From an uncultured Acidobacteriota bacterium (GTDB lineage Bacteria; Acidobacteriota; Vicinamibacteria; Marinacidobacterales; SMYC01), in the NCBI GenBank assembly GCA_947259165.1, contig CAMYKY010000001.1:1-64000 (forward strand): 64,000 bases of DNA, written 5' to 3'. Below, one piece after another: positions 4,705 through 12,430 of the stretch. The position numbers and the translations under genes are program-made. How positions within the stretch are numbered: the first letter of the stretch is position 1; each line of letters starts with the position of its first letter. The notes beneath the pieces were generated by a model. That model made no database searches. It was not told the DNA's origin and was given only the letters and a program-made list of their open reading frames with translations.

Positions 4705-5688
4705 TCAAGCGCAAGCCGGACAGGGAGTTTGCCCACATACGACGCAGAGCCCTCGCCCGCAGGTCTGACAGCGCACCATGCAATTCGAGCAAAGAATGTG
4801 TTTCAAGCGACATTGCACGGCCTTGGTGTCGCGCGTACCGCAATGACTGCACACCCATCCGGCGTGGGCCAATGGAGCCGGTGCGACTTGGGCCGGTGAT
4901 GGGGCCGTCGCCGATACGGCGGCGGCAACTGCTGGCGTCGCTGCGGGACCCGTCGGGCCTGCGGCGCGTGGCGACGCGGTGACCGTCGCCACGACTTCGT
5001 TTCTGCCCGCCACTACTGGCGCCGTCGTTGTAAGCGCGGCTTGGGCGCACGCATCGCAGCTCGTCAACCCGCAGGAGAGACACAGAACCGAACCGCACAC
5101 CTTGCAATGAGCGACACAGTCGCCGCACAAGACGTGTCCGGTAGCACACCGCTCGAGCGGCTTACCTTTGGCACCGCAGTTAGAGCATTGGTCCGCTGTT
5201 TTAGCCTCGCGCTGCTCCGCGTTCGACAAATCGATAAAGAACTCTTCCTTTTCGATAGGTAGCCGATGCAAGTGCTCTTCTACCCATCGCGCAGCCTGGC
5301 CATTCAACGGGCTCTTGACGTTGTAGCTCTGAAACGCCAACATCTCCCCAACTCGCTGGATCATTTCGTCCAGCCGTTCGGCAGCGCTCCAGTGGTCACC
5401 GATGCAAACCGTGTGCGGTGCGATGTTCGGATGAAACACCGGAGTCAGCATACGACACACGGGTGCGTCGCGCGGATAGCTCCTCGGGAGCGTAATTTCG
5501 AGACGATGCTCCCGCGCCAAATCAATGCGCTCGCCTTGTTCCCTGAGCGAGCGCACGCGAATCACGAGTCGGTAACGATCGGGAGGGTTTCCGCTGACTC
5601 CCTCAACGTCGATTTTGGGATGCAGGTGTACGAGACGCTTCACCGCTTCGTAGTCTGACTGCAAACGCCGTAGCCGAAAGTTGCTCAT
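4705..5688 (-). CDS. E2 ubiquitin-conjugating-enzyme-like (UBC fold) protein with two C-terminal RING/treble-clef-like zinc modules
   Basis: SYPRDAPVCRMLTPVFHPNIAPHTVCIGDHWSAAERLDEMIQRVGEMLAFQSYNVKSPLNGQAARWV matches the canonical E2 pattern (HPN motif, catalytic Cys95 codon at 5404-5406). The C-terminus has two Cys-rich blocks, CSNCGAKGKPLERCATGHVLCGDCVAHCKVCG... and CSHCGTRDTKAVQCRLKHILCSNCMVRCQTCG.... Confidence 0.88.
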   Translation of the reverse strand: MSNFRLRRLQSDYEAVKRLVHLHPKIDVEGVSGNPPDRYRLVIRVRSLREQGERIDLAREHRLEITLPRSYPRDAPVCRMLTPVFHPNIAPHTVCIGDHWSAAERLDEMIQRVGEMLAFQSYNVKSPLNGQAARWVEEHLHRLPIEKEEFFIDLSNAEQREAKTADQCSNCGAKGKPLERCATGHVLCGDCVAHCKVCGSVLCLSCGLTSCDACAQAALTTTAPVVAGRNEVVATVTASPRAAGPTGPAATPAVAAAVSATAPSPAQVAPAPLAHAGWVCSHCGTRDTKAVQCRLKHILCSNCMVRCQTCGRGLCVVCGQTPCPACA

Positions 5689-6926
5689 GGCTCTCCCCCA
5701 CCACCCAAAAGCATGAGCTCGTCCCCGTCCATCATCTCCACGATACGCTGCATCGTATTCGACGGCAGGCTAATGCCCTTCGGGCCTCCTTCTTCAAAAT
5801 GCGTCCAGGTGTTCAAGCCAACGAGACGACCGAGACTATCGAAAAGCCCGGTACCGCTGTCGCCCGGCTGCACGGGCAAGCTGGTGTAGATCAAACTGTA
5901 GTCGCCGGCCGGGGTGCGGTGTGACTCTCGCTTCAAGACTGTCCCGCGATGCACTGTCCAACCCGAACGAAACGGATTCGGGACGAACGAGACGTCGAAA
6001 CCCGCCTCGGCCGCGTCGGCGCTCGCTCGCACGGGAACCGGTTGCGGAGGATTTTCGATTGAGACGCGAACGACCGCGACGTCGAGCGGTGGCTCCGCCG
6101 TCCACACGACGTGCCCTTCGGCATGTCGCCCATCCGAAAAATACACCCAGACAGGGTGGGCGTCCTTCGGATCCCGAAACGCCGCAACGGACGCATAAGG
6201 CATCGCGACGTGCGAACAGGTCACGACGAACGCCGCGCCGCGCTCGCTCCGGATGACCGCCCCCGAACCCAAAGATACGCCGCGGGCATCACCGTCTCTG
6301 TCTGGAGCCATCAGCACCGTCGTCGCCGACATGATGGATTTCTCTTGCACGCTCAGGGTTTGGGGAGCCACTTCGAGCGGGGGCATCGCCATATGAGCCC
6401 ATCCCACGCCGCTCGCACCGCTCCAATGGAAGGCGCCCACGAGCATCGTGGTCGTGCCGACGACAATGGCGGTGAGGTTCACCAACAGTAGCGGGGCGTT
6501 CCGGAAAAGAGATCCTCGCTTCTGAGCAAGTGTGGACGCCGCGCCCACGACGAGTGCGAGGAGCCCGAGTCCGGCCGTCAGCAGAGACGTTCGCTGCAGC
6601 TCCGCAAAAAGCGGCGCGAGCGGCCCGAGCGGGCGAGCCGCCAGGAGGTCTCGCGCGTAATAGATTCCGCCGACGGCCAGGACGAGCGCGGTGATACCAG
6701 CGAACCAGTACTTGGCGGCCACGGCCACGCCTTCGCCACGAGTGAACTTCGACTCCGCTTCCGCGATGTCGTTTTGGCCAATGACTAGTTTCTCTCCGCG
6801 CCGCCCATACCGCTCCCACGCCTTCGAGGATTCGCACTGAGAACACGACTGGCCGGCGAGCAGCCGCACGGGCACCGGTGAGCGGCAATCAGGACAAAGC
6901 GTTCCCCCTACGCTGGTCATCGTCAC
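5685..6926 (-). CDS. Membrane-anchored trypsin-like (S1C) serine protease with N-terminal zinc ribbon
   Basis: CPDCRSP...CSQCES zinc ribbon; TM helices; triad blocks VTCSHVAMP (His), PPLDVAVVRV (Asp), QPGDSGTGLFD (Ser). ATGA overlap with the E2 gene. Confidence 0.85.
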   Translation of the reverse strand: MTMTSVGGTLCPDCRSPVPVRLLAGQSCSQCESSKAWERYGRRGEKLVIGQNDIAEAESKFTRGEGVAVAAKYWFAGITALVLAVGGIYYARDLLAARPLGPLAPLFAELQRTSLLTAGLGLLALVVGAASTLAQKRGSLFRNAPLLLVNLTAIVVGTTTMLVGAFHWSGASGVGWAHMAMPPLEVAPQTLSVQEKSIMSATTVLMAPDRDGDARGVSLGSGAVIRSERGAAFVVTCSHVAMPYASVAAFRDPKDAHPVWVYFSDGRHAEGHVVWTAEPPLDVAVVRVSIENPPQPVPVRASADAAEAGFDVSFVPNPFRSGWTVHRGTVLKRESHRTPAGDYSLIYTSLPVQPGDSGTGLFDSLGRLVGLNTWTHFEEGGPKGISLPSNTMQRIVEMMDGDELMLLGGGGEP

Positions 6927-6948
6927 GGATGTCCTACATTACCTGTGC

Positions 6949-7488
6949 CTAGAAACCGAGAGCGACAGCGATCGAGATCAACGCGTACGTCGCTCCCAGC
7001 GCTGCGGTACCGTAACCCATGGCGAGGTAAGTCCCCCCGGCACCCTCGAGTTTCTCCCTGTTGCTGTAGGCGAACCAACCGGCGATGGGGCCAACGATCG
7101 GTGCCAGTACGCCAGTGAGCGAAATCACGAAAAGCGTCACCATCATCCCGCGACTGCTCTTGATCGCCGCTTGTTTGGCGAGCCATTGGAAGTACTCGTC
7201 CTTCGTCATCGGGTCCGCATAGGGGAACTGGGCGCCGCAGGCGCACGCGAGAAAGCTCGAGCTCATTTCACTGCCACACGACGGGCACGTTTTGTTATCA
7301 CCCCACCCCGCGGCTTGAACGGCAACCGGATCGGCTTTCTCCGCGGGAGCGACTTTCGTGCACCCATAGGTCGCGCAACCACCGATGCCGTCCCAGCAAC
7401 TCGTATGATACTGCTGGTGACATTCTGTACACGTGCGCGTCGGGACGTCTTCCTGAATCAGAGTGTGACAAACGGAGCAACGATTCAT
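6949..7488 (-). CDS. Prokaryotic RING-finger (Prok-RING family 1-like) membrane protein
   Basis: CSVCHTLIQEDVPTRTCTECHQQYHTSCWDGIGGCATYGC binuclear Cys/His pattern, a second CPSCG...CACG ribbon, and C-terminal TM helices. Confidence 0.82.
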   Translation of the reverse strand: MNRCSVCHTLIQEDVPTRTCTECHQQYHTSCWDGIGGCATYGCTKVAPAEKADPVAVQAAGWGDNKTCPSCGSEMSSSFLACACGAQFPYADPMTKDEYFQWLAKQAAIKSSRGMMVTLFVISLTGVLAPIVGPIAGWFAYSNREKLEGAGGTYLAMGYGTAALGATYALISIAVALGF

Positions 7489-7566
7489 CCCAGCCCTCCA
7501 GCCGTCATGCGAGCGCCCCCCGAGCCAAGCGCCAAGTCTTTTTCCCGAGCGTGCATGGCGTCGCGA

Positions 7567-8139
7567 TCAAACCGAGAATTGGTAGAGCAGTCCAAGACCC
7601 CAGAAAACGAGCGCAACGATACCCAGCACCTTCCCCGTCGTCGCCAACCCGCCACCGCTCAGACTCGGATCGGCGGCGATCGCAGTTTTGGCCTCGTCGG
7701 CCTTTTGAATGGCGATCAGTCCGAAAATGACCCCACAGATGAAGATGCCGAGAACCCCGAACACGAGCGACGCAACCGCACCCGGTGCGGTCTCCGTTGG
7801 TCCGCGGTAGACACCGTCGGGAGACACCAGGCCTTTGTTGCAGTACTCGCAACGGATCGACACCGAGGGAATTTCGAGCTGACAATGCGGACAGTTCACC
7901 CGCCCTGGTGGCGGGCCGGGCGGGAGCTCGGGCAGCGGAGCGAGCTGCTTGAGCGGCGCGTTCACGCAACCGTCGGACGAACAACCACCTTGGGCATCCC
8001 AACAGTTGGAGTGATGTCCGATGGTGCAGCTTTCGCAAAGAGCTGCGTCGGCTCCGAAATTCAACACCTTCGAGCACCAGCCGCAAGGCTTGCCTTCGAG
8101 AACTCGATTGGTCTTGAGTCGATTGACTGTCTGTCCCAT
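7567..8139 (-). CDS. Prokaryotic RING-finger protein with DUF4190-like TM domain
   Basis: CGWCSKVLNFGADAALCESCTIGHHSNCWDAQGGCSSDGC, then CPHC...CEYC, then a GAVASLVFGVLGIFICGVIFGLIAI TM hairpin. Confidence 0.82.
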   Translation of the reverse strand: MGQTVNRLKTNRVLEGKPCGWCSKVLNFGADAALCESCTIGHHSNCWDAQGGCSSDGCVNAPLKQLAPLPELPPGPPPGRVNCPHCQLEIPSVSIRCEYCNKGLVSPDGVYRGPTETAPGAVASLVFGVLGIFICGVIFGLIAIQKADEAKTAIAADPSLSGGGLATTGKVLGIVALVFWGLGLLYQFSV

Positions 8140-8162
8140 CCGTTATCTCCCAGACTCAGTCC

Positions 8163-9494
8163 TCAGGCCGACCCGCCCATCTGTTTCGCACGCTCCTCGA
8201 ACTCGACCACGGTCGCGCCCAACGTCACCTGGTCTCCGGAGTTGAGGCGTTGCCTTCTGATGTTCTGTCCACTGATTTGCGTTCCCGAGCGGGTGTCGAG
8301 GTCTTCTATTTCGTAGCGGTTGCCGACGCGATGGATTGCGATGTGGTCGGGATCGATCCCCGCGTCTTTGAACAAATAGACATCCGCAGAGGGAGAGCTA
8401 CCGATGACGGTCGGCGATTTGTAGAGAACGAAGGATTTGCCGGCAAGCGGGCCCGTCCTAACTCGAAGCCACGCTTCTCTTGCGAGCTGATCGACGAGCG
8501 CGACGAAGAATCCAACACAGAGCCCGACCGCGATGAGACCCACGATACGGGACAACTCAGCGCCCGCAAATGCGGAGGGCTCCTGGAAGAATCGATCGAT
8601 GGGATCGAAGAACACACCTCCGAGCGCGCCGCCCAAGGCGCCACCAATCACGGAGTTGCGAAGTTGGCTCTTCGTGCTCCGAGCCAGGTTCATCCCGAGA
8701 CCGAGACCGGCTCCGATAAACGCCCACGCTCCGCTGCGACACGCTGAGTACAGAATGAATGTCACCGGAGGCATGTCCTGCACGGTCGTCCATGTCGCGG
8801 AATCATCCATCGACATCACATACTGCCCGATGCCCATCATGACGGCGGCGGGAACGAACGACAGGAACGCGAAGATTGCCGTGAGCAGAACGCCGATCAT
8901 GACGCGATCGATCATGCGCACCCAGTTCCGGGAGGTGACCCCTTCGGCGACCAGCATCGCGACCGCGATGAACACCGCCGTCACCGGAAACAACAGGATG
9001 CCGGACCAGCCGAAGCCGCTTTCGATCTGATCCCCCGTGTGCATGGCTTGGCTGGCCGTCGCCGGTCGCAACGCCCCCGCGAGCATCTCGTGGTCGGCCC
9101 AGGTCTCGCCGACAGCTTCGACGTACGTTCCTGGCTGGACTTCGTTGATATCGGTGAACGGAGGCTGACCATCGACTCCGGCCTCCATCGTGATCATGCC
9201 CGGAAAGACGATGACTTTGTTGTCCCCTACCGTGAGATTGATCGCATCACTCAACTCGGGCTCGGCAGGATCGTCGCCGAATTCGAAGGGCTCGCTGTTC
9301 ACTAGCAGGACTTCTCCGCCCACGAGCGAGAAATCGGCGAAGTAGGGCTCGATCAGAAGCCACGCCGAGAAGCTCGCGAGCAGTCCCGCGACCGGCAGAT
9401 AGAACAGACTCGACATCATGAGTCTGCGCATCGGCGACAGGTCCGGGGGCTCTTCGGCGACGACGCGAGTGCGAAGCTGACGTTCCTTCTTCAA
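8163..9494 (-). CDS. Polytopic membrane protein with C-terminal FHA domain
   Basis: Several TM segments, then PTVIGSSPSADVYL...DPDHIAIHRVGNRYEIEDLDTRSGTQISGQNI...GDQVTLGATVVEF (FHA). True start may lie upstream in frame. Confidence 0.82.
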   Translation of the reverse strand: MKKERQLRTRVVAEEPPDLSPMRRLMMSSLFYLPVAGLLASFSAWLLIEPYFADFSLVGGEVLLVNSEPFEFGDDPAEPELSDAINLTVGDNKVIVFPGMITMEAGVDGQPPFTDINEVQPGTYVEAVGETWADHEMLAGALRPATASQAMHTGDQIESGFGWSGILLFPVTAVFIAVAMLVAEGVTSRNWVRMIDRVMIGVLLTAIFAFLSFVPAAVMMGIGQYVMSMDDSATWTTVQDMPPVTFILYSACRSGAWAFIGAGLGLGMNLARSTKSQLRNSVIGGALGGALGGVFFDPIDRFFQEPSAFAGAELSRIVGLIAVGLCVGFFVALVDQLAREAWLRVRTGPLAGKSFVLYKSPTVIGSSPSADVYLFKDAGIDPDHIAIHRVGNRYEIEDLDTRSGTQISGQNIRRQRLNSGDQVTLGATVVEFEERAKQMGGSA

Positions 9495-9550: not shown

Positions 9551-10876
9551 TCAGGGAGCACCCCCATCGCGCAAACTGCTGCGCAGTTCCTCGTAACGAC
9601 GGGCGTTTCCGGGGTCGAGCGTCGCCGCGAGCTGGAGCAGGCGACGAGCGCGCTGGGTGTCTCCGGCTTTGCCGACATCTGCCGCGACCTCGGCGTACAG
9701 CTGACCGAGCGCGGCGCGCTGGTCCGAAACCATCCGCGTGACCTCCCGGGGAACGGCCGAGGATCTTTGGCCGAGTTGTTGCAGCAGTCTCAAAGAGCGA
9801 TCCGCCTGAAAATGGGTATCCCGGAGCTCTCTGAGCTTGCGCCGTCCTTCGACCAGCGGAACCATTGCCTCGTCACCAGAGCGCCCACTACTGAGCTGTG
9901 CGAGACCGAGGTCGACTGCCGCAAGCCCTTCATCGAAATCCCGGCGCAGAGACTCACCACCCCCCGCGGCCTCACGGACGAAGCTCAGAAGCTCCACGTT
10001 CAATCCACGAAGCAGCGCTTCTGCCGCGGCAGCTCGATCCCGGTCGAGTCGGATTCGAGCTTCTTGAATCACGTCGCGCAAACGGTATTGGGCGAACGAG
10101 AAACCAGCGAACCCTCCAATCAACAGGATGGCGAGCGCGGTGATGGCCATCGTCGCCCAATCCCATTCGCGCTCCGGCGGCGAAGGGTCGACCCTTGGTT
10201 GACTCATAGTCTGTTTCGCCGAGCTCGAGCCCGAGCTTGAACTTGTCGCGGTCCCTGCCGAGACCTTGGGCTCCGCCGACACGCGGGCGCCGTCCCAAAG
10301 GGTCTCCTCCTGCCCTACCCAGTATTGACGGCAGCGCGCAGGCTCGTTGTCACGCCAAACGAAGACACCGTGCTCATGACTCTTGGGATCGTAGACGAGC
10401 GCAATTTGATAGGGCAGATTGAAAAAACTCTGGTGAATAAACAGATCTCGATCCGACAAGAAAATGCCGAAACCGGGGTGTGTGTGGTACCAACCGACGA
10501 TCTTCTTGTCTTTATGCTTCGATTCCAATTCTTTGTGGATGTAATCCCAGGTGTCTTGAGTAAAGGTGAGCTCGGTTCCCTTTTCTTCCGCGTACAGCGC
10601 GTCGATGGTCGCATCCACTTTGAGAAACGGCCCGCTCTTGTCCTTGTGAATCTTCCCGACGAGCACGCCGCCGATTTCGCGAGTGAGATCGGCGTCTCCA
10701 CGTTCGGTCGCGCGATCGAAAGCGTCCTCGGAAATGTAGATCCGAAACCCGTGCCGAACGCTGGGAAAAGTCTCTTTCGAGAGCTCTTTCGCGTCGATGG
10801 CACGGGTATCAAGTCCGTTCAAAACCGCCTCCCATCTCTTCAGGAACTGACAAGGGCCCCAAGACCAAGGGTGCAT
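9551..10876 (-). CDS. JAB/MPN (JAMM) metallopeptidase with TM segment and C-terminal helical region
   Basis: EIGGVLVGKI...GWYHTHPGFGIFLSDRD JAMM motif (His-x-His codons at 10477-10485); TM WATMAITALAILLIGGFAGFSFA. Start uncertain; overlaps the E1 3' end. Confidence 0.87.
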   Translation of the reverse strand: MHPWSWGPCQFLKRWEAVLNGLDTRAIDAKELSKETFPSVRHGFRIYISEDAFDRATERGDADLTREIGGVLVGKIHKDKSGPFLKVDATIDALYAEEKGTELTFTQDTWDYIHKELESKHKDKKIVGWYHTHPGFGIFLSDRDLFIHQSFFNLPYQIALVYDPKSHEHGVFVWRDNEPARCRQYWVGQEETLWDGARVSAEPKVSAGTATSSSSGSSSAKQTMSQPRVDPSPPEREWDWATMAITALAILLIGGFAGFSFAQYRLRDVIQEARIRLDRDRAAAAEALLRGLNVELLSFVREAAGGGESLRRDFDEGLAAVDLGLAQLSSGRSGDEAMVPLVEGRRKLRELRDTHFQADRSLRLLQQLGQRSSAVPREVTRMVSDQRAALGQLYAEVAADVGKAGDTQRARRLLQLAATLDPGNARRYEELRSSLRDGGAP

Positions 10877-12038
10877 CGCCGTCGAAAAGCCACGCTCGCT
10901 GATCGTCGAGTCCTTGGCGCGCGACGATGACGTCGAACAACGGAAGACCGGCCTGTTGCGGAGTTCGAGATAAATCGACAACTCCGTCTCTGCATATCGA
11001 CGAGGCGAACTCGACGCCGCGATGGGCGCGGCACTTCGGGCACGCCGCGTCTTTCTCACCGATTTCGCCGAGGACTTGGTAACGCGGCTCGCTCGTCCCG
11101 CAGCTTCCGCACTCGAGCGACACGACGATGTCACGACTGAGATCCAAAACCGCACCAGCTCCCAACTCGCCCTCGGCACGTTCGAGAAGCTCTTCGAAGG
11201 TCACGGCGTCACTTGCCAGTCCGAGTGGTGTGATCGGTCCCAAGTTCTCGTGACCGGGACACTCGTCACGACGCGGGTATCTTACCCGGCTGATATCGCC
11301 CCAGAGCCCGTTGACATGGAGTCCCTCGGAAACGAGCGCGGGTTGACCGTGCAGCACCTTGATCGCTTCTTGCACTTCGAGCGCCGCTACGAGTGAAGCC
11401 GCGACGGCGGTCGTGGGCACGTGTCCGGACTCAACGATGTCCCGCGCAAGCATTGCGCACGAACGACGCTCCGCCACGAGCTTCCGATCCGTTTCGTTCA
11501 TCGTGCACTCGTAGCAGGACCCCTTCGCCGGATCGAATACGCGCGCGATTCCCGCCAAACCCTCGATCGCACCATCGACCCAAACACGACCGGTCGCCGC
11601 GCTCGCGCTGTTTGCAAAGATGCGTGCCTCGCGATTGTCGAGACCGCAGATGACGACGTCCGCCCAGAGAAAAACGCCTAGCCCCGCCTTGTGGTTGAGA
11701 TTGTCGACTCGTGGGTGTGCGCACACGTCGGGGTTGAGCTCCCGCATGCGCTTCACCGCGACCGTCGCCTTCGCGCCACCTTGGTCTTCGTCGCGAAACA
11801 AGACTCCACGTGACAGATTGCTTTGCTCGATGATGTCCATGTCGTAGACCAGCACTTCGCCGATTCCGGTCAACGACAAAATCTTCAAGATCTCGTTTCC
11901 GAGAGCACCCGCCCCGATCACGAGAACGCGTGCCGATCGGATTTTTTCCTGGTCCCACCACGTGATGAGCTCCTGACGGTCGTAGCGACCACCACCGTCA
12001 CGTCCGAGAAGCTCGTCGTGCGAGAGCTTCATGTCCAT
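10809..12038 (-). CDS. E1-like ubiquitin-activating (ThiF-fold) enzyme
   Basis: RVLVIGAGALGNEILKILSLTGIGEVLVYDMDIIEQSNLSRGVLFRDEDQGGAKATVA, VVICGLDNREAR, putative catalytic Cys194 in RRSCAMLARD (codon 11457-11459). TAATG overlap with the Ubl gene. Confidence 0.9.
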   Translation of the reverse strand: MDMKLSHDELLGRDGGGRYDRQELITWWDQEKIRSARVLVIGAGALGNEILKILSLTGIGEVLVYDMDIIEQSNLSRGVLFRDEDQGGAKATVAVKRMRELNPDVCAHPRVDNLNHKAGLGVFLWADVVICGLDNREARIFANSASAATGRVWVDGAIEGLAGIARVFDPAKGSCYECTMNETDRKLVAERRSCAMLARDIVESGHVPTTAVAASLVAALEVQEAIKVLHGQPALVSEGLHVNGLWGDISRVRYPRRDECPGHENLGPITPLGLASDAVTFEELLERAEGELGAGAVLDLSRDIVVSLECGSCGTSEPRYQVLGEIGEKDAACPKCRAHRGVEFASSICRDGVVDLSRTPQQAGLPLFDVIVARQGLDDQRAWLFDGDAPLVLGPLSVPEEMGGGFERT

Positions 12039-12313
12039 TAGACGCTGCCGGCGGTGATCTCGGGCTGGATTCGCATCACATCACCGTTGGTCACCTGCTG
12101 GTCGGCGAGGGATTTGTCATCGAGCAACTGGATCCCGAGCCGGCGATGGTGAAACTTATAGCTCATCAACTGACCGTCGGGACTGTGCTTGGGAAGATGG
12201 AGCTTGTCGGCGAGAACGAGCAGGATGCGATCTACCGTAACGTCGTCGGGCACTTCGACCTCGACCCGCTTGTTCCCGGTGGCATCCCAGACTTCCAGGT
12301 TGACATCACCCAT
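12038..12313 (-). CDS. Ubiquitin-like (YukD/EsaB-like beta-grasp) protein, 91 aa
   Basis: MGDVNLEVWDATGNKRVEVEVPDDVTVDRILLVLADKLHLPKHSPDGQLMSYKFHHRRLGIQLLDDKSLADQQVTNGDVMRIQPEITAGSV; beta-grasp-like pattern, lies directly before the E1 gene. Confidence 0.78.
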   Translation of the reverse strand: MGDVNLEVWDATGNKRVEVEVPDDVTVDRILLVLADKLHLPKHSPDGQLMSYKFHHRRLGIQLLDDKSLADQQVTNGDVMRIQPEITAGSV

Positions 12314-12430
12314 GGACAGGACTCCAGAAGACGGAAGGTTTTGTGAAACCAGAGCGTTGATCAATTCTCGCGGACAGCTCCCAGGCTGTCAACACATCAG
12401 CTCTCTCTTACCACGGAGACAGCGGCGAAA

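Follow-up and report, generated by a model that had tools for sequence, protein, structure and literature searches.

An invariant single glycine and a drifting, probably removable tail at the C-terminus of a bacterial YukD-like protein encoded beside E1, E2 and JAB

In archaea, a pro-ubiquitin carrying a nine-residue C-terminal tail is refractory to its E1 until Rpn11 removes that tail (PMC5654768), and CsRpn11 of Caldiarchaeum subterraneum cleaves exactly after the di-glycine, removing nine residues; this enzyme still cuts a Gly77Ala ("AG") substrate, though at a lower rate, and is sensitive to bulky residues past the cut site (PMC6043591). In the Bil system, BilC exposes the C-terminal Gly of BilA (PMC11354881). 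E1/E2 conjugation in CBASS requires no more than one C-terminal Gly, the residue before it being variable (the cGAS of these systems needs only one Gly or Ala), with the JAB protein Cap3 serving as deconjugase (PMC10097602), and UFM1 (VG-SC) is matured to a single Gly by the loss of Ser-Cys (PMC9638016). For bacterial operons, JAB was predicted both to process and to deconjugate the ubiquitin-like protein (Ubl), YukD itself being unconjugated (Iyer 2006, PMC1779556). Here we describe a bacterial operon whose Ubl is, in our judgement, quite probably a YukD-like precursor that is cut after Gly89, with the operon's JAMM peptidase as the likeliest enzyme, and conjugated by E1 and E2 through that single glycine.

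The window, i.e., the whole stretch of 64,000 nucleotides that was analysed, encodes on its reverse strand a YukD-like beta-grasp protein of 91 residues (12041..12313), read directly from an ATG at 12313 to a TAA stop at 12040-12038 that overlaps the start of the E1 gene (TAATGGACATG). An in-frame TTG at 12364 was rejected as the start, because the ATG is where orthologues begin. Direct translation bears out the original prediction that the protein ends in ...EITAGSV and lacks a di-glycine: the C-terminus reads ...RIQPEITAGSV, in which the near-invariant EITAG motif (residues 85-89; 12047..12061) lies at the end of strand beta5 and contains the predicted E1-reactive residue, Gly89 (12047-12049), and in which Ser-Val (12041..12046) is the predicted removable propeptide. 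The protein belongs to PF08817 (YukD; 5.6e-11, 43.5 bits against a gathering cut-off of 27), and its AlphaFold2 model (pLDDT 88.7) has a beta-grasp layout in which the last strand, beta5, spans residues 79-85. Model confidence is low from residue 89 onward, and this end of the protein is predicted to form a flexible tail. By fold, the model is nearest to EccD Ubl domains, ubiquitin, NEDD8 and the ubiquitin of C. subterraneum (6fno/6fj7); E-values to polyubiquitin were disregarded, as repeats inflate them and each domain scores only about 6.7 bits.

Downstream of the Ubl, all on the same strand, lie genes for a ThiF/MoeB-type E1-like activating enzyme with a C-terminal zinc-binding region (10809..12038; PF00899, 5e-47), a JAB/JAMM metallopeptidase continued by a transmembrane segment and a C-terminal region (9551..10813, start approximate; PF01398, 6.7e-11), a protein judged from its sequence to have multiple transmembrane segments, with a C-terminal FHA domain (8163..9494; PF00498, 1.5e-11), a Prok-RING_1 protein with transmembrane segments that is a candidate E3 (7567..8139; PF14446, 3.7e-7, above cut-off), a second Prok-RING_1-like zinc protein with transmembrane segments (6949..7488; PF14446, 6.3e-5, below cut-off), a transmembrane protein with a trypsin-like (HtrA-type) protease domain (5685..6926; PF13365, 3e-18) and an E2 (UBC) domain joined to two C-terminal Cys-rich (RING/zinc-ribbon-like) modules (4705..5688; PF00179, 4e-10). 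Hydrophobic, probably transmembrane, segments occur in each of the FHA, RING-like and trypsin-like partners (5685-9494), so the conjugation complex may be membrane-associated. PADLOC returned only generic E1-E2 and JAB matches in the window.

The three enzymes are intact at the level of sequence. The motifs of the E1 (an Arg finger, GxGA-GNE, D.D..E..NL.R, DNREAR and CYExT...R..C) are conserved over 61 orthologues, and the nucleotide loop is kept. The JAB retains a complete JAMM motif (E...HTHPGFGIFLSDRD), the E, HxH and SxxD residues of which are invariant in 25 aligned JABs, and its best PDB relative is CsRpn11 (2.4e-22). In the E2, the catalytic site reads HPN...VCIGDHW, with the HPN and the catalytic Cys invariant in 23 aligned sequences. 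The operon holds together an E1, an E2 with its catalytic Cys, a JAB with its JAMM motif and a Ubl with a conserved C-terminal Gly and a dispensable tail. The PDB relatives of the E1 are UBA7, Uba1, UBA3, UBA5 and MoeB, and it is a single-domain ThiF/MoeB-type enzyme in which neither a UFD nor a separate Cys domain can be recognised, an architecture that would also suit a sulphur carrier. The CysO/Mec+ pair, in which a JAB-type enzyme releases the product, provides a precedent: here, the MoeB-like E1 would turn Gly89 into an adenylate or thiocarboxylate, and the JAB would free the product. We consider such a role improbable, given that every genome tested has an E2 in which HPN and the catalytic Cys are conserved, that the operon encodes RING-type proteins and that no sulphur-metabolism genes occur among its genes. 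Since a sulphur carrier also needs Gly89 exposed, the case for maturation of the Ubl is unaffected by the choice between this role and conjugation.

The gene content of the operon is that of the predicted bacterial E1/E2/JAB/Ubl operons (Iyer 2006, PMC1779556). It also shares the E1-E2-RING-JAMM set of the C. subterraneum operon (CsUb/CsRpn11/E1/E2/RING), where CsUb, like the Ubl proposed here, is a precursor with a C-terminal propeptide and has a matching fold (6fno/6fj7). However, CsUb ends in GG plus nine residues, whereas Ubls of the type found in the window have a single Gly after Ala and a tail of 0-107 residues that is often absent, and the present system is bacterial and has membrane-associated RING, FHA and trypsin-like partners. 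Bil (BilABCD) likewise comprises a Ubl, E1, E2 and JAB, but BilA has two Ubl domains rather than one and the gene set differs: the BilA model did not match the window Ubl, and BilD matched the E1 only weakly over a partial domain (1.9e-5). UFM1, Atg8 and the CBASS cGAS resemble the window Ubl in their single C-terminal Gly, although their machinery is unrelated, UFM1 and Atg8 being matured by cysteine proteases. Bacterial operons with RING proteins and YukD-like Ubls were reportedly described by Burroughs in 2011, perhaps with mention of a C-terminal Gly; in the accessible literature on such operons, which does not include that work, we did not find an invariant single-Gly AG end combined with a hypervariable or absent tail.

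An E1-based scan yielded 15 loci from Planctomycetota, Armatimonadota, Clostridia, Ignavibacteria, Actinomycetota and others, with the Ubl just upstream of the E1 in 14 and, in the fifteenth genome, on another contig stretch. EITAG is invariant in these first 15 aligned Ubls and is followed by nothing, S, I, RF, GA, GARV, SIHR, TGLGSATGE or longer sequences. Profile searches of additional genomes raised the number of orthologues to 75 from several phyla (72 distinct by core and tail). Gly89 is kept in all 75, and the motif is spelled EITAG in 72 and EVTAG, EMTAG or EITTG in one each, such that the chain reads AG in 74 and TG in one, with C-terminal GG found in none of them. Among the 72 distinct proteins, 30 end exactly at Gly89 and 42 carry one of 33 different tails of 1-107 residues; none of the 75 ends before Gly89. 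The residue immediately following the glycine (P1') can be S, R, A, G, I, V, M, Q, T, E or N across the tailed orthologues; Pro does not occur there. Averaged by column, identity reaches 0.992 at residues 85-89 as opposed to 0.73 at residues 1-84, which argues that the EITAG end is not due to chance.

The tails themselves drift rapidly. Ignavibacterial Ubls with cores 97-99% identical have tails of MSS, S, none or 23 residues, and among the 205 pairs whose cores are at least 85% identical, only 4 have the same non-empty tail (the very long tails in L048, of 51 residues, and L133, of 23, may be assembly errors and were given no weight). Mapped onto a tree of E1s from 61 genomes, tails were gained or lost at least 16 times, near the mean of 19.5 obtained after shuffling. 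Because the boundary at Gly89 is fixed while the residues downstream vary freely, the pattern reads as the signature of a removed propeptide, and an invariant Gly with a variable tail is what the original prediction had proposed to look for among orthologues. The mature Ubl is thus very probably residues 1-89, ending in ...PEITAG.

One possibility raised in the original prediction was that the operon's JAB trims the Ser-Val to leave ...TAG: trimming to Gly89 is well supported by the orthologue alignment, and the JAB is the probable trimming enzyme in view of its genome-wide co-occurrence, its intact JAMM motif and the archaeal precedent (PMC5654768, PMC6043591). Both JAB and E2 are present in eight of eight genomes tested, including four Ignavibacteria with split loci, in which their apparent absence near the E1 was a flank artefact: whole-genome searches locate the two genes together elsewhere, at a second locus, where they are neighbours if the contig allows, as it does in three of the four assemblies. 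In these Ignavibacteria (L014, L016, L018 and L021, with L114-L117 and L125-L128), a Ubl-E1-RING locus stands apart from an E2-JAB locus. As tailed and tail-less testable species all have a JAB, correlating tails with JAB presence is uninformative, and co-occurrence alone cannot prove that the JAB does the trimming. A further point against it is that P2 at the predicted cut is Ala, whereas CsRpn11 prefers Gly.

Trimming to Gly89 could instead fall to another enzyme, either the operon's trypsin-like protease or a housekeeping peptidase, leaving the JAB only to deconjugate. A trypsin-like protease gene is present in the window and in 16 surveyed loci, and tails of one or two residues could be nibbled by carboxypeptidases. 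However, the surroundings of several tailed members (L012, L088 and L089 among them) yielded no trypsin-like gene, for which reason we rejected this protease as the trimming enzyme; in addition, no trypsin-like site is common to the tails, P1 is always Gly, a JAB occurs in every genome tested, and the archaeal counterpart of this step is the job of a JAMM enzyme (PMC5654768). Trimming by an enzyme other than the JAB is accordingly unlikely, if less so than the sulphur-carrier role. Separately, the operons of L008, L009, L010, L092 and L201 each carry more than one JAB, with two or three distinct paralogues, so maturation and deconjugation may be split between them.

YukD and EccD Ubls of type VII secretion share the Pfam family (PF08817) and fold of the window Ubl, so that the tail might be retained and the protein act non-covalently, as these do, with EITAG merely structural. 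In keeping with such a role, B. subtilis YukD is not conjugated (PMC1779556), and EccD Ubl domains are the best VIA-align matches to the model, although many ubiquitin-type folds are tied with them within Z ~1. However, YukDs of the secretion type stop after beta5, without a PEITAG tail, and are reported unconjugated (PMC1779556), whereas PEITAG extends past beta5 in the window Ubl, the neighbours of which are E1, JAB, FHA, RING, trypsin-like and E2 genes rather than EssC or WXG100. As a control, we compared PF08817 matches in Clostridia: 19 YukDs resembling those of type VII secretion end within a few residues of beta5, and six operon-type proteins carry QPEITAG with or without a tail, so that the PEITAG extension is specific to conjugation-type operons. 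A non-covalent role is very improbable, as the EITAG end also runs into a low-confidence, flexible tail in the model, the sharp limit at Gly, and never earlier, is unexpected for a structural element, and the operon holds an intact E1, E2 and JAB.

The AG rule is common to three sister Ubl families from related E1/E2/JAB operons, which end in PE[IVM]VAG, LLTSTFVAG or L.PN[IV][ED]AG with variable tails or none. Beyond the orthologues themselves the rule is not absolute: the Gly is missing from two family-2 members (...PEIIAA-FRHSPPRAE and ...PEMVE-PFPRIL...). The fourth Ubl family (PN[IV][ED]AG; L003, L044, L005 and L043) has a diverged E1 and JAB-like neighbours with an altered motif, which in L003 reads HSHP followed by a Cys-rich insertion. 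L045/L046 (G361:C132) encodes a tandem two-domain YukD-like Ubl (poly-Ubl), the second domain of which ends in EEIAG-CRFASRSGGRP.

In one Clostridia MAG, the Ubl runs on in frame from EITAG, as a fusion, into a zinc-ribbon protein whose two hydrophobic segments probably cross the membrane (L179 / L201:10757-11362, reverse strand), in an operon that also encodes E1, E2, a trypsin-like protease and two JABs; the arrangement resembles the ubiquitin-ribosomal-protein fusions of eukaryotes. In two Armatimonadota loci, a YukD-like Ubl lies N-terminal to a JAB domain, a transmembrane segment and a LysM-like C-terminus, with the Ubl ending in AG in one (L173) and AA in the other (L037).

At the level of sequence, then, the Gly is invariant, the tail dispensable and hypervariable, and JAB, E1 and E2 intact and co-occurring; from these we infer cleavage, the JAB as trimming enzyme, thioester chemistry, conjugation and its targets. 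The flexible C-terminus beyond the last beta strand would be cleaved after Gly89, most probably by the operon's JAMM peptidase, with loss of Ser-Val to leave ...PEITAG. The E1 would then adenylate the single C-terminal Gly, after which the Ubl would pass from cysteine to cysteine, from E1 to E2, and on to a target; the membrane RING proteins are likely E3s. The JAB probably doubles as a deconjugase that takes the Ubl off its targets, which would explain its retention in tail-less species. Direct use of a non-Gly terminus, or no conjugation at all, had also been considered originally; both are disfavoured because many species encode a Gly-ending Ubl beside an intact E1, E2 and JAB. The missing di-glycine is not in itself a problem, since CBASS and Atg8 manage with a single C-terminal Gly (PMC10097602).

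The kind of system and its style of maturation are already known; distinct here are the single-Gly AG class, the drifting tail and the natural fusion. The lack of a di-glycine yields a clear prediction, that the working end of a widespread bacterial Ubl is one glycine and the remainder disposable, and a simple C-terminal rule sets conjugating YukD-like proteins apart from the YukDs of secretion systems. With JAMM processing of pro-ubiquitin so far shown in archaea and Bil, these bacterial systems offer native tail-less, short-tailed and fused substrates for it. We regard it as somewhat more probable than the reverse that they form a bacteria-wide class of conjugable modifiers with an AG end, a drifting removable tail, JAB-split fusions to membrane proteins and a JAMM enzyme adapted to Ala at P2; if so, Ubl-membrane-protein fusions would be split by JAB in a manner analogous to the ubiquitin-ribosomal-protein fusions of eukaryotes.
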